Source of the DNA: Acinetobacter tibetensis
Lineage (GTDB): Bacteria > Pseudomonadota > Gammaproteobacteria > Pseudomonadales > Moraxellaceae
Direction: 5' to 3'
DNA length: 64,000 bases
Assembly: GCF_023824315.1 (NCBI RefSeq)
Contig: NZ_CP098732.1
Location: forward strand, 806,001-870,000
Shown piece after piece: positions 7,714 through 13,361 of this stretch. Every line of letters starts with the position of its first letter. Within the stretch, counting starts at the first letter, position 1. The position numbers and the translations under genes are program-made. The notes below the pieces were generated by a model. That model was not told the DNA's origin and ran no database searches. It saw nothing but the letters and a program-made list of their open reading frames with translations.

Positions 7714-9111
7714 ATGACGGATTGGCATACGACAATTTTGCGTAAAACATTGCTGGCGAGCATGATTGGGCTCTGTTGTTCTTATAGTTTTGCTTTAGAA
7801 GCACTTTCAGATCAGGTATTAAGTAATTCTACGGGCGAAGGCATTGCTATTCTGCCTGAAAATTTCAAAATGGTATTTCAAACTGCCGAAGATGGTTTGA
7901 GCGTGGCGCAGAATCAAACTCGTTTAGCCAATCGCAACTACGACACTGGTTTAATTCGCTTTATCCCAGTGGGACCACTTTCAGACACAGCCAAAACTGC
8001 GGGTGCCAAAAAAGCAGATGTCTTTTTTTATGGTTTAGCGTTATCGGCATCGGACAGTAATCTAAACTCTCGTTTTAGTAATATGGGCTTCAATTGGGGG
8101 CAAGAAACCAATCCTTGGGTATTTAGTGTGAAGTCTATTAGTACCACCGCCAACCGCGTGGTATATGACTTTGCAGGGGTTGCACAAGATTTCAGTTATT
8201 TATCTTTAGAGGCACCTTATGCTCTTGATGGTGCTGCCAATACCGCAGCGGATAATAATATTAAATTAGGCTTGTGGGGAGATTTCTTCGAACGTAATCC
8301 TTTGGTTGCTGCACCTGTCGATGCTAAAAACGGCGCACCTGCGAATTTAAATGGCTTAGACAGTCGTTTAAGGCTGCAAATGGTGGCCAATGGTTTGTCT
8401 TTGAATGGATCTAATTTAAAGTTATTCCAGACTTTGGGGGGAGCAGCCAGCTCATCACTACCGACGTCTTATAACAATACCTTAGGTTTGGCGGCACTCA
8501 TTCGATTAAATACCAATGATAATCCAAGCACTGCAACTGAAGATAAATCCAAAGCATTACGCATTAGTACGGCAGAAGCCTTAGGCACAGATATAACCAA
8601 TGATTTAACTACGCCTGCGATTTCTAAAACTTCTGCACCAAATTTTAATGAACATGATGGCGTGTTTTTATATAGCCCGAATATTAACTTGGTGCTAGGA
8701 AGTGTTTATCAACCCTTAATTGTTGATACAGCGGCAGATGGTCAAAACTTTGTGATTGAATTGACCCGTATTCCGAATAAAGCCAATGTTTATCAACAAA
8801 TTTATACGGACTACACCGCATTGGCGAGTGGTGCGGCTTCGGCTTATAAGGGTTCAACCTGTAATGTTCAATACTGTGGTGATCCAATCAGCATGGGGCA
8901 AACTTATCAGGGCAATACAGCCACACACAGCAGTATTTCTATTGGTACGGTAGGCTTTACCAATAACAATAAATTTTTAAAAGCAGATACCAGTACCAAT
9001 GCAGTAGGGGTGAGTTTTGTTACCCCAACAGGAACCAAGACCAATTTAGGATCCGCAGCGATCGATGGAATGTTAATTCAACATCTGAAAATTACGACAA
9101 CAGGGCTATAA
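7714..9111 (+). CDS. Exported Fil/DUF6160-like protein 1 with double-glycine-like leader
   Basis: A 465-residue exported protein, first gene of a four-gene operon. Residues 1-27 form a Sec signal peptide ending YSFA. Directly after it comes L31-x4-L36-x4-G41-E42, within ALEALSDQVLSNSTGEG, the motif shared by all four proteins of the cluster. The rest is rich in Asn, Ala, Thr and Gly, is predicted to be mostly beta strand, and has one close cysteine pair (CNVQYC). No membrane anchor is visible. AAGGAAGG precedes the ATG. Acinetobacter genomes call relatives putative pilus-system (Fil) proteins, a name I recall rather than demonstrate. Function is unknown; a surface or extracellular role is inference. 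The next gene starts 10 bp downstream. Confidence 0.7.
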   Translation: MTDWHTTILRKTLLASMIGLCCSYSFALEALSDQVLSNSTGEGIAILPENFKMVFQTAEDGLSVAQNQTRLANRNYDTGLIRFIPVGPLSDTAKTAGAKKADVFFYGLALSASDSNLNSRFSNMGFNWGQETNPWVFSVKSISTTANRVVYDFAGVAQDFSYLSLEAPYALDGAANTAADNNIKLGLWGDFFERNPLVAAPVDAKNGAPANLNGLDSRLRLQMVANGLSLNGSNLKLFQTLGGAASSSLPTSYNNTLGLAALIRLNTNDNPSTATEDKSKALRISTAEALGTDITNDLTTPAISKTSAPNFNEHDGVFLYSPNINLVLGSVYQPLIVDTAADGQNFVIELTRIPNKANVYQQIYTDYTALASGAASAYKGSTCNVQYCGDPISMGQTYQGNTATHSSISIGTVGFTNNNKFLKADTSTNAVGVSFVTPTGTKTNLGSAAIDGMLIQHLKITTTGL

Positions 9112-9121
9112 GGAGAAATAG

Positions 9122-9739
9122 ATGAAACATTATATTTTTGCTGCCCTAATGTTAAGTTCTCAGTGTGCTTCGGCAGCGTTAGATGCATTAGATGCCAACC
9201 AATTATCGAATATACGTGGACAAGGCGGGGCAGATTTAAGCTGGTCATTTTCTTTAAATCATAACTTGCCGACCAATACTACAGAAGTCCCTTATGAGTA
9301 TTCCTGTAATGGCGCAGGTAATGAATTTTGCCGTTTAGCCTTTAACGTGAGTAATCGTAAAGATGCCAGTGGAAACTTGTATTGGCTAGTTTTCAAAAAA
9401 ATACAGGGCACAATTGCGATCGATAAATTTCAATTAGATGGCACCACTGTAACGACCAGTGCAGGCTATAAAACGGCAATGAAATTGACCTTTCTAGATG
9501 GCTATCCAATCCAGATTCGTAATTTTGGTTTTGAAGCACTGGCTATTGAAAAAGATTCAGGTACGAGTGATGCGCAAAAAGGTTATTTAAAGCAAACGAC
9601 TTATAGTTCATCGCATGAGTCTGTGTTTGATCGTGGTTTAGAAACAGGCTTTACGGGCTTAAATATGCATGGAAATTTAGCCTTATCAGGAACAATGAAG
9701 TTTTTTAGTTGTAATTCTACTGCGACTTCACGTTGTTAA
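9122..9739 (+). CDS. Exported Fil/DUF6160-like protein 2 (short)
   Basis: A 205-residue exported protein. The signal peptide MKHYIFAALMLSSQCASA is followed at once by ALDALDANQLSNIRGQGG, giving L23-x4-L28-x4-G33-Q34, the cluster's shared motif. The mature part is beta-rich and contains two cysteine pairs: C-x7-C in YSCNGAGNEFCRLAF and a second C-x7-C that ends the protein (SCNSTATSRC). The ATG has an excellent AAGGAG ribosome binding site, 10 bp after the previous stop, so the two are co-transcribed. No enzymatic motif is visible. Function is unknown; it may be a minor subunit or partner of the larger proteins. Confidence 0.7.
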   Translation: MKHYIFAALMLSSQCASAALDALDANQLSNIRGQGGADLSWSFSLNHNLPTNTTEVPYEYSCNGAGNEFCRLAFNVSNRKDASGNLYWLVFKKIQGTIAIDKFQLDGTTVTTSAGYKTAMKLTFLDGYPIQIRNFGFEALAIEKDSGTSDAQKGYLKQTTYSSSHESVFDRGLETGFTGLNMHGNLALSGTMKFFSCNSTATSRC

Positions 9740-9762
9740 TTCAATCACATAAGGAACTGTGA

Positions 9763-12000
9763 ATGAGTACAAACAAAATTATAAAACTCAGTGTGTTGGC
9801 TTCGAGTGTTTTATTGGCGCAGCAGATTTATGCTTTAGAAGCACTTTCAGATCAAAGCTTGCGTACTGTCTCAGGACAGGATGGAATTAGCTTAAGTTAT
9901 GAAACTGACCGAGTCACCATTGATCAATTGAATTGGAAAGACAATACCAATTTCTCGAATGGTACTTCAGGGAATTTGAATCTTTCCTTGAATAATATTG
10001 AAATCAATAAAATTGACAATAATAAAATTGGTGGGAAAGTTAAACTCGATGTGGGAACCAATGCCAATAAGACGGGCATGCGGATAGAGGCGGTGATTAA
10101 TCCTGCCAATATACATATTGCCAAAGTGGCTGTGTGTGGTGATGGCACACGTGGTGCAGATTGCATGAACCAAAATACCTTGGGTGCTTTAACTCTGCAA
10201 AATCGGGCACCGATGAATTTTGTCTTAGAAACCCGAAGTGGTTTGTTTAACTCAAAAGATAAAGCCTATTTGGAATTTGGTCTGCAAAATGCCAATATTT
10301 TCCATACGCTAAAAAATGGCAATGAATATAACCAGCTTATTTTAAAAGACTTTAACTTTAATTTTAAAGGTACAGGTTATTTATATTTAGATGCCAATAA
10401 AGGCATGGTGTTATCGACCAACTCACCGAATGCTTCGGACAGTACGGTGAATGAAGTTGTTCTTGAGCGTGTTCAGGATTTGGATAATCCAGGCAAGACT
10501 CGACCTGGTTTTAATATTGATGTGCGATATAAAACCAATGTCGGCAATGATGGAAAAACGTATACCGCCAATGAAAATACAGACCAACTGAATTCTATTA
10601 TCCGTTTAGGGGCATCTGGACGTTTACGAGATGCAGAAGTATCGGTCAATGCTGATCGAACAAATTTAGGTGGTGCAGAAGGGACTTCAACTTCTAGCAC
10701 TCAAATGACAGGTTCAACAGGACTGCACCTGAATGTGAAAACCAGTTTTACTCGTGATGAGAAAAATTCATCTGGTGTAGTGACAGCAGAAGGCACAAAA
10801 TTTGAGCTGGGGCATACAGGTAAGAATTCCTATGCAATCGAGTTTGGTAATTTAACACCGTTACAAATTCGTACTCAAAGCGGCGCTAATTTAGTTGCCA
10901 ATAATAATTTGGCCTATATTAATTTTGGCGACATTTATATTAATGCAGTGCAAACCAAATCGTTGGAGTTTGAAATAGGGCAAAATATTGCCAAATTATT
11001 AGGCAAGCAAGCAGGCATTGGTCGTTATAACTTAAGCAATAATGCACAGAATGCTGTCGCAATTGCAGTACGAGGCATGGATTTTCAAGCGATTGCCCGA
11101 AATGCTAAATTTATTGCCAATAATAGCAATGACGCGAGCCATCAAATTACCTCCCAAAGTGCAACATGGGGATTGGGTATTCCCATTTATAATTTGAATG
11201 CCAATTTAGGTTTATATGGCACGACTTATGGGGAAAATAATGCTGAAGCGATTGGTTTTGGTTTAACTATGTCCACACAGGGGCGTGATGCAGTAGGCTC
11301 TAAAACGACCTCCATTATTTTGATTGATGGTGCTCCGAACAGTTTCAATACGGCGGAAGAAGTAAATTATTATACAGGTCTGCGCAATATTGATTTCTTC
11401 ATGGATACGCAAGGCGTGTTGGCAATGGAGCAATCAGGCATTAAGTTAGACTTGCCTCGTTTAGTGATTGCAATGGGGGCTGAAATTGCATTGGGACAGT
11501 TACCAGGCAGTCGCTATGAGGCTGCTGCATGCGCGAATGCTGCAACAACCAGTTTAAATTGTTTTGTTCCAGCCAATAGTTTTACCAATACAGATGATGT
11601 GTTATTCGGATTGGCATTGCGCTTGGATTCTTCAGCACAATTGAACATTTTACCAGGGACAGCAGCAGATAATCATTTAGCCATTCAAGGCAATATTAAA
11701 CTGAATGCTTCTGATGCAACCACCAATAAAAACTACCTACATTTGACCAATGTTCAAGACAATGCCACGATTGGTTTTGACCGAATTCAAGGTGAACTAG
11801 ATTTGAATGCCAAAATTTTGGTAGAGAAAGATCAGGTTAAATTTAATAATAACATCCGTTTAAATCCGACTAATCAGGCTGCTGGGGTTTTCAAAGCCGA
11901 TGTTAATTTATACCCGACAGCAGATCGAGCACAGAATTTAGGCACGATGGTGTTTACTGGTGGGAATATTCGCAGCAGTTTCGGCATTACACCAAGATAA
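9763..12000 (+). CDS. Exported Fil/DUF6160-like protein 3 (large)
   Basis: At 745 residues this is the largest protein of the cluster. The signal peptide ends YA at residue 24 and is followed by LEALSDQSLRTVSGQDGISL, giving L28-x4-L33-x4-G38-Q39, the best match in the cluster to the DUF6160 pattern seen in exported proteins of many gammaproteobacteria. The remainder is a long, Asn-rich, strand-forming sequence (for example NLNLSLNNIEINKI and LYLDANKGMVLS) with a cysteine pair in VCGDGTRGADC and another near residue 590. It looks like an extended beta-helix or fibre-like protein, though that is inference. AAGGAA precedes the start, 24 bp after the previous gene. No transmembrane helix is seen beyond the signal. 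Confidence 0.72.
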   Translation: MSTNKIIKLSVLASSVLLAQQIYALEALSDQSLRTVSGQDGISLSYETDRVTIDQLNWKDNTNFSNGTSGNLNLSLNNIEINKIDNNKIGGKVKLDVGTNANKTGMRIEAVINPANIHIAKVAVCGDGTRGADCMNQNTLGALTLQNRAPMNFVLETRSGLFNSKDKAYLEFGLQNANIFHTLKNGNEYNQLILKDFNFNFKGTGYLYLDANKGMVLSTNSPNASDSTVNEVVLERVQDLDNPGKTRPGFNIDVRYKTNVGNDGKTYTANENTDQLNSIIRLGASGRLRDAEVSVNADRTNLGGAEGTSTSSTQMTGSTGLHLNVKTSFTRDEKNSSGVVTAEGTKFELGHTGKNSYAIEFGNLTPLQIRTQSGANLVANNNLAYINFGDIYINAVQTKSLEFEIGQNIAKLLGKQAGIGRYNLSNNAQNAVAIAVRGMDFQAIARNAKFIANNSNDASHQITSQSATWGLGIPIYNLNANLGLYGTTYGENNAEAIGFGLTMSTQGRDAVGSKTTSIILIDGAPNSFNTAEEVNYYTGLRNIDFFMDTQGVLAMEQSGIKLDLPRLVIAMGAEIALGQLPGSRYEAAACANAATTSLNCFVPANSFTNTDDVLFGLALRLDSSAQLNILPGTAADNHLAIQGNIKLNASDATTNKNYLHLTNVQDNATIGFDRIQGELDLNAKILVEKDQVKFNNNIRLNPTNQAAGVFKADVNLYPTADRAQNLGTMVFTGGNIRSSFGITPR

Positions 12001-12026
12001 AAAGAATGAAAGGAATCTAAGCGGTC

Positions 12027-13361
12027 ATGAAGACGAAACTATTATTAAGCATTTTATTGGCTACAACTACACCCGTCATGGCAAAGAGTTTGCAAAGTCT
12101 TTCCGATCAGGAACTGTCAGATGTATCTGGTCAAGCTTTATTAACCTTGCAGTATTTACAGGGAACCTCACAAACCGATCAAAAAGGGGATACTTATAAT
12201 CAATCCAATATTGGCTTTTATAAGTTGGGTCTTGAAGCGGTTATGGAGTTGAATGCCAATATCAATAAATTGGCATTGGGTTGCGGTGGGGTTAACAACA
12301 GCGTACGTGCCAGTAGTTGTGACATTGATATTGATAATATTTCTTTAAGTGGTTTACCTGCAAACTCCAACTATACTTCGGATGAGCGAGCAGCAACTTC
12401 GGCTAAAATTACCAATCCATTTTTACAATTTGCGATAAAAAATCCGAACTCAGCAGCTACGCGTGAAGTCGTAGGATTTCGAGTCAGTGCCGAGAAGATT
12501 TCAGGACTCATGACTTTGGGTACAGAAAACTCTGCAACACCAAATGGAATTAACACTTTTAGTGGTTATATGAAAACTAAAACTGCAACGGGTACAGCCG
12601 TGACACAGGCACGTAATATGACTTATGCTGATACAGGGTTAACGATCAATGGTATTGTGCAAGGTCGATTATTGGGAAGTAGTTCTGGAACAACGTGTGT
12701 CGATGGTTTTTTAGATCCTTGTTATGATATTTCTTATACCTCGAATAATTATAATTTAAGCCTTTCTTCAACTTCTGCCCCTTTTACGATTAACTCTACC
12801 ATTGTGTCGGGAACGAGACTAAAAGATGTGGTTTTAAAAGGCAGCGGGACAGTTGGGCAGATTGACTTTAGTGGGCAATTAACGGCTAAAGTATTAAATT
12901 TATTAAACTTAGATAAGCAAGTAACAGGCAACATTACAGGGCTTAAAACTGATATTACAGTCAATCAGAACTTGGGTCTAATTCATGCGCTATATTTAAA
13001 TAACCCAGCTTCACTATCGTTACAGTCACAAAAAATATTGTGGCCTGGGGCAGCGGTAGCTGCCAATCAAGGTTGGTGGCTGTCTATGGAAGATGAAGTG
13101 GAACTCGGGAGTTTAAGCCCAACTACACAAGTAGCGATTACCAATCAAGTTTTACAGCAAACCATTGCTGGGATTAATAAAGACTTAACTGAAAATCCAC
13201 GAAATTGTGGAAACCTATTAACAGGATGTGTAGGGGGCTCTGCATTAGTCGTGGGTAATGTTCCGATGAATACCACGACTTTAGATTTTCCACTCACCAA
13301 TTTAACTTTGCAAGGGCAAAACTTCCGTTCTAACTGCTTTGGTGGAATGAAGTTCTGTTGA
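12027..13361 (+). CDS. Exported FilA-like protein 4
   Basis: A 444-residue exported protein, last gene of the operon. A signal peptide ends VMA at residue 19; then comes KSLQSLSDQELSDVSGQALL, giving L25-x4-L30-x4-G35-Q36. This is the closest of the four to the double-glycine leader consensus, including the E-L pair. The mature region is strand-rich with several cysteine pairs (GCGGVNNSVRASSC; CVDGFLDPC; CGNLLTGC), and the protein ends C-x6-C (NCFGGMKFC). I recall similar Acinetobacter proteins annotated as putative pilus system protein FilA, but am not sure enough to assign the symbol. AAAGGAA precedes the start. A terminator follows the stop codon. Confidence 0.72.
   Translation: MKTKLLLSILLATTTPVMAKSLQSLSDQELSDVSGQALLTLQYLQGTSQTDQKGDTYNQSNIGFYKLGLEAVMELNANINKLALGCGGVNNSVRASSCDIDIDNISLSGLPANSNYTSDERAATSAKITNPFLQFAIKNPNSAATREVVGFRVSAEKISGLMTLGTENSATPNGINTFSGYMKTKTATGTAVTQARNMTYADTGLTINGIVQGRLLGSSSGTTCVDGFLDPCYDISYTSNNYNLSLSSTSAPFTINSTIVSGTRLKDVVLKGSGTVGQIDFSGQLTAKVLNLLNLDKQVTGNITGLKTDITVNQNLGLIHALYLNNPASLSLQSQKILWPGAAVAANQGWWLSMEDEVELGSLSPTTQVAITNQVLQQTIAGINKDLTENPRNCGNLLTGCVGGSALVVGNVPMNTTTLDFPLTNLTLQGQNFRSNCFGGMKFC

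Follow-up and report, generated by a model that had tools for sequence, protein, structure and literature searches.

Within the genome of Acinetobacter tibetensis, a stretch of 64,000 nucleotides (G000:C1:806001-870000; hereafter the window) encodes four exported proteins in which a signal-peptide-like start is followed by the pattern L-x4-L-x4-G-[QE], that is, L(-12)..L(-7)..G(-2)Q/E. The corresponding open reading frames (ORFs) 1-4 form one tight cluster, all on the plus strand, with intergenic gaps of 10, 23, and 26 bases (table 1). Judged from sequence, this motif is likely to be a second, post-Sec leader peptide, and exported C39 proteases probably recognize their substrates by it, because the motif often occurs near such proteases in other bacteria and is also present in the amyloid protein FapE.

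Table 1. ORFs 1-4 of the window and their leader-type motifs; signal peptides were placed by eye.
Feature	Position	Strand	Description
ORF 1	7714-9111	+	465 aa, exported; signal peptide ~7714-7794
ORF 1 leader-type motif LSDQVLSNSTGE	7804-7839	+	residues 31-42; L31-L36-G41
ORF 2	9122-9739	+	205 aa, exported; signal peptide ~9122-9175; homologues in betaproteobacterial C39 loci
ORF 2 leader-type motif LDANQLSNIRGQ	9188-9223	+	residues 23-34; L23-L28-G33
ORF 3	9763-12000	+	745 aa, exported; Pfam DUF6160 N-terminus; signal peptide ~9763-9834
ORF 3 leader-type motif LSDQSLRTVSGQ	9844-9879	+	residues 28-39; L28-L33-G38
ORF 4	12027-13361	+	444 aa, exported; signal peptide ~12027-12083; homologues in betaproteobacterial C39 loci
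ORF 4 leader-type motif LSDQELSDVSGQ	12099-12134	+	residues 25-36; L25-L30-G35

The four motif positions proposed in an earlier note on this DNA were reproduced exactly, with identical spacing in all four proteins. A signal-peptide-like segment does lie just ahead of each motif, but with the signal peptidase sites placed from A-x-A the distance to the first Leu is 3-5 residues and not the 1-3 given there. The likeness to the bacteriocin leader consensus, also put forward in the earlier note, holds at -12, -7, and -2, with Q or E at -1, and is incomplete at -4, which is hydrophobic in three of the four motifs (Ser in ORF 1); three of the four carry Ser at -11.

The frequency of the motif by chance was estimated with one script for the window and for 40 control stretches of DNA, which contain 565 signal-peptide-like ORFs in three classes: genomes without a FapD or FilB profile match (261), other parts of the same genome (179), and FapD-type genomes (125). 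The bare pattern occurs in 7 of the 35 signal-peptide-like ORFs of the window and in 17/565 of the controls (7/261, 6/179, and 4/125, respectively). Requiring at least four polar residues leaves 4/35 in the window, which are exactly ORFs 1-4, and 4/565 in the controls (2/261, 1/179, and 1/125), these four being membrane or random sequence by eye. With the stricter script, 105/788 ORFs in FilB-type loci match, versus these 4/565 in the controls. It should be noted that motif scans of all ORFs also pick up chance matches, for example within FilC.

The C39 peptidase that the earlier note had expected as processing enzyme, FilB, is present in this genome, encoded ~173 kb from the window and adjoining FilA, which carries the motif. 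FilB scores 540 bits with the FilB model NF050078 (cut-off 475) and 57.6 bits with the peptidase C39 family PF03412 (cut-off 22), and its Q/C/H/D active site is present; at 104.9 bits it stays under the cut-off of 330 of the FapD model NF058616, and is thus a relative and not a member. FilA reaches 303.7 bits with NF050077 (cut-off 220). The catalytic residues are invariant in 15/15 standalone C39 proteins and in 38/38 FilB relatives, and in the structural comparison of a modeled FilB with 98% identity (L248, Acinetobacter sp. ANC 4910) the leader-cleaving domains of PCAT1, ComA, and LahT top Foldseek's list. We infer from analogy with FapD, and with relatives such as that in L067 whose signal peptide is clear by eye, that FilB faces the periplasm; the analogy is needed because Acinetobacter FilB, read from its conserved Met, starts with a hydrophobic segment without a clear positive N-region or cleavage site, and a longer N-terminal reading adds R and K. 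The second C39 match of the genome (L009:9687-10226, 179 aa) was considered for the processing role and rejected: The protein lacks a signal peptide, its match covers just half of the domain, and orthologues of it occur in G410 and G468, two genomes that lack FilB. This conserved C39-like protein also gives a match, under cut-off, to a Pfam guanylate-cyclase family.

The window proteins share their N-terminal signature with FilA of the Acinetobacter fil locus and with DUF6160 proteins, whereas their bodies differ. Only ORF 3 exceeds the gathering cut-off of DUF6160 (PF19657; 40.2 bits, cut-off 27), with ORFs 1, 2, and 4 at 13, 21.5, and 20.1 bits, and all four are below the FilA cut-off, the best score being 45.7. 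Pfam also gave weak matches between ORF 1 and FimH and between ORF 4 and MreC, both below cut-off and therefore set aside. A sequence search for relatives of solved structure returned none for ORF 4 or for FilA (best FilA match, E 0.47).

Motif proteins and FilB are found in the same genomes. In 199 genomes of the host's family, a DUF6160 protein is present in 81/81 genomes with a strong FilB (E below 1e-90) versus 3/118 of the others; nine of these 118 have weaker FilB-profile matches, and none of the nine has DUF6160. As FilA itself belongs to DUF6160, ORF 3, which is unlinked to fil in its own genome, provides the sharper test: It is present in 58/58 FilB-positive and in 2/16 FilB-negative Acinetobacter genomes. 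The co-occurrence that the earlier note had asked for is thereby supported, G410 and G468, which keep the motif proteins without FilB, being exceptions. In a sample of 397 genomes of the phylum, DUF6160 was found in 12, of which 10 lie outside the family; 8 of these 10 encode a FilB-type C39 protein, versus 0/16 genomes of the same order without DUF6160, where "FilB-type" denotes match span and reading by eye and not the FilB profile. Other FapD-profile matches are present in 6 of these 16. The genomes G121 and G221 contain 16 and 17 DUF6160 matches, on many contigs. Clustered DUF6160 matches were seen at G806:C6:10209-13096, G670:C3, and G616:C3; their ORF lengths (411/198/947 aa in G806) resemble those in the window, which suggests that the window operon exists outside Acinetobacter.

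The association extends to linkage in other bacteria. The FapD profile matched 59 of 276 evenly sampled gammaproteobacterial genomes, and 40 of the 59 have a standalone protein. We examined 51 of 54 standalone C39 sites (leaving out FilB of the host genome, G233:C6:538411, and G206:C238) and found a signal-peptide ORF with the motif within 6-kb windows at 31/51 sites, versus 8/114 control windows; 34 sites had a match, but in L374, L375, and L377 only inside the C39 protein itself. For the best 80 of 579 confirmed FilB-relative loci, the motif occurs on the strand of the C39 gene in 92/532 signal-peptide-like ORFs, with 4.2 expected from shuffles, and in 62/80 loci; on the opposite strand it occurs in 25/256 ORFs (2.8 expected) and 8/80 loci, mostly in divergent clusters in relatives of Janthinobacterium, Rugamonas, and Duganella. 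No match on either strand was found in 13 of these 80 loci, eight of them from Marinobacter. The scan of these 80 loci covered all ORFs; two other locus surveys kept only long non-overlapping ORFs, losing real genes in GC-rich loci.

Two of the window proteins have counterparts in such loci even when signal peptide and motif are removed from the query. Homologues of ORFs 2 and 4 were detected in all 14 loci L314-L327 within ~5 kb of the C39 gene (in L316, a weak part of ORF 4 only), with E-values that are too good because the three iterated rounds include the matches themselves; the same search found no homologues of ORFs 1 and 3 in these loci. The loci derive from Ideonella, Janthinobacterium, Roseateles, Massilia, Duganella, Rugamonas, Pseudoduganella, and Burkholderiaceae, with L314 assigned to Proteobacteria only. 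In the betaproteobacterial relatives, G, A, R, or Q occupies -1, and several of them have a classical double glycine, as VRGG or VSGG ahead of DGISF; none of six GG-bearing relatives tested matched the bacteriocin leader families.

Some distant loci show further arrangements. Short signal-peptide proteins with an LSxxEMxxxxG-type leader adjoin exported C39 genes at L370:622-870, L378:4929-5318, L371, and L374; in L370 and L378 a bacteriocin-like tail, hydrophobic and rich in glycine, comes after the leader (e.g., LSDQEMKNTEGA then WFNFVSAGWGAVGGGVGYASST). At L376:699-2486, an exported C39 gene is preceded by genes for four consecutive small exported proteins, whose leader-like motif has A-G (ITAG, VTAG) in place of G-Q. 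One genome, G042 (L370-L375), encodes seven standalone FapD-profile C39 proteins.

The closest known parallel is the Fap system of Pseudomonas, where FapD is described as a periplasmic C39 protease whose active-site Cys is needed for FapC secretion (PMC5557850). According to the available text of that paper, the FapD target "remains unclear" and the Fap proteins lack canonical C39 sequences; the available text of PMC6173800 likewise calls the substrate yet to be determined, and FapD is "thought to" process FapE and FapF in that of PMC12822426. FapE is reported as the only Fap protein with complete N-terminal processing, its N-terminal peptides being missing (PMC5557850). In three loci inspected among the six with FapD above its cut-off (L226-L228), we found FapE; the two Pseudomonas-type proteins beside fapD in L226 and L227 reach 346 and 351 bits against the FapE model, whose cut-off is 250, and their sequence behind the signal peptide is LKD[QA]E[LM]A[TE]LRGR. 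All of the best 120 of 1288 FapE homologues contain the motif (112 strictly, 4 with V at -12, and 4 as N-truncated entries still holding it), and -1 is R in all 112 strict matches. Both systems pair an exported C39 peptidase, standalone and encoded beside an outer-membrane barrel, with a client candidate that has a signal peptide and the same spaced motif, and the next NCBIfam relatives of FilB and FilC are FapD and FapF. They differ in that FilB and FilC score far below the FapD and FapF cut-offs, -1 is Q or E here and R in the FapE homologues examined, NCBIfam names none of FilA-FilF as FapB or FapC, and the clients here are partly unlinked to the protease.

Stretches of the type GNALSGxxGA in FapA/FapB-like proteins (e.g., L046) were rejected as leaders and, by eye, read as amyloid repeat, although the 6-kb motif scan still counts them. 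In several of the Fap-like loci L054-L058 and L060-L064, the C39 gene stands between genes for two motif proteins, and the product of the downstream gene often has RGGF, a true GG.

After reduction to 163 sequences, a set that includes chance matches, the consensus is L-[DS]-D-x-E-L-[SA]-x-V-[TS]-G-Q. In an alignment of the ORF 2 family (36 rows), -12 is L in 34 and M in 2, -7 is L in 26 and M in 10, -2 is G in 34 and A in 2, and -1 is Q in all 36. The substrate consensus of peptidase-containing transporters (PCATs) is given as L-12 xxx E-8 L-7 xxxx G-2 G-1, with residues -10 to -4 helical and with L-7 and L-12 forming a hydrophobic knot (PMC6959990). The window motifs resemble C39 double-glycine leaders in their hydrophobic residues at -12 and -7 and Gly at -2, but not in having a small residue (G, A, or S) at -1, nor in standing at the extreme N-terminus for cytoplasmic reading by a C39-ABC transporter, a signal-peptide-like N-terminus preceding them instead. 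With the leaders and C39 domains of PCAT1/CtA, ComA, and LahT, the features L-12, a tendency to E-8, L-7, G-2, the C39 fold, and a modeled helix from -10 to -5 are shared, whereas here the leader lies behind a Sec signal peptide, the protease is unfused to a transporter, and -1 is mostly Q, otherwise A, R, G, E, or K.

These likenesses lead to a putative pathway. Sec would carry the four precursors across the inner membrane, and removal of the signal peptide would leave a tail of ~15-17 residues. This tail would form a short helix (-10 to -4) that may dock on the leader groove of FilB, with contacts made by hydrophobic residues at -12, -7, and in most cases -4. FilB would then cut at or just behind G-Q/G-E, and the client would be handed to the FapF-like outer-membrane barrel FilC or be assembled at the surface. 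FilB/FilC and FapD/FapF would be versions of one module, with FapE as the matching client of FapD. The earlier note regarded maturation by Sec and then C39 as new; as a principle its novelty is unsupported, because FapD has already been shown to be periplasmic with a required active-site Cys (PMC5557850). What does appear to be new is the motif, together with its spread and the predicted substrates: The portion of the open-access literature available to us contained no record of a defined leader behind a Sec signal, of a client assignment of the FapE/FilA type, or of its spread.

Several observations weigh against a cleavable C39 leader. In loci of the FapD-profile class the stricter script matches only 19/631 ORFs, its 8-residue spacer limit missing many FapE-type proteins. 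The scan detected no motif ORF at 20/51 exported-C39 sites, although in seven of these (L064, L071, L075, L371, L372, L374, and L376) a motif is visible by eye, missed by the pattern or spacing limit. The statistics of the FilB association (Fisher, hypergeometric) ignore shared ancestry. DUF6160 also occurs without FilB in G308 (an assembly of 300 contigs), whose only C39 domain lacks a signal peptide, and G622 (a weak match) and G559 have DUF6160 without a standalone C39 protein. For the Fap system, FapF is also named as a possible FapD target (PMC5557850) and FapC is said to be modified by FapD (PMC10638192); no such motif was seen by eye in FapC. The N-terminus of FilB described above belongs here as well, as do the residue at -1, the conservation beyond the site in the ORF 2 family, and the retention of the motif ORFs in G410 and G468, all taken up below.

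The motif could be a docking or export signal that is read by the C39 protein, acting as a chaperone like the C39-like domain of HlyB, or by the pore, with no cut at the motif. Such a role would suit the Q or E in place of G at -1 of the window proteins, unusual for C39 and facing a cleft described at this position as very narrow (PMC6959990), and binding-only C39-like domains are known (PMC5557850). It would also suit the ORF 2 family, in which, unlike in classical leaders, conservation continues beyond the site (GGADLS). We nevertheless regard this explanation as unlikely, given the invariant catalytic residues, the requirement of FapD for its active-site Cys, and the missing N-terminal peptides of FapE.

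That the motif merely marks a family, or opens the fold of a surface protein as its first structural element, and resembles C39 leaders by coincidence, we consider very improbable. The motif is common to members of one family, DUF6160, and G410 and G468 retain all four motif ORFs although both FilB and FilC are absent. Their C39 matches are a 176/177-aa protein without a signal peptide, orthologous to L009:9687-10226, and weak matches in 715-aa frames. The motif is, however, also found in proteins not grouped with DUF6160 by Pfam and NCBIfam (FapE of L227; L056, L062, L064), and it co-occurs with exported C39 proteins. The first strand of the fold, raised in the earlier note as a further objection, does not fit the ORF 2 model, in which residues 25-30 (-10 to -5) are helical, residues 31-50 have a pLDDT <50, and a beta domain starts at ~71; a short helix ahead of a disordered stretch is thus suggested, weakly because the mean pLDDT is 63. 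Finally, joint inheritance alone, with FilB cutting something else, could draw on the common ancestry behind the association counts and on the C39 sites without a motif ORF, but it too is very improbable: ORF 3, which has no linkage to fil in its own genome, is missing from 14/16 FilB-negative Acinetobacter genomes, and distant loci show the pairing again with other partner proteins.

Returning to the post-Sec leader, we lean slightly toward a broader proposal, in which exported C39 proteases with FapF/FilC-type barrels constitute a general Sec-coupled double-glycine processing in proteobacteria. One protease would serve many, partly unlinked clients: FilA, DUF6160 proteins including the dispersed sets of G121 and G221, the window operon, FapE, and even bacteriocin-like peptides; FapE would be the substrate of FapD, cut at L-x4-M-x2-L-x-G-R. 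With the FapD target left open in the available text of PMC5557850 and PMC6173800, a defined, spaced motif makes the substrate question assayable by peptide cleavage, and it allows a prediction of the surface proteins in Acinetobacter, Pseudomonas, and some Betaproteobacteria that share a protease and probably a pore. If this is true, double-glycine-type leaders would not be bound to ABC transporters or to the cytoplasm.

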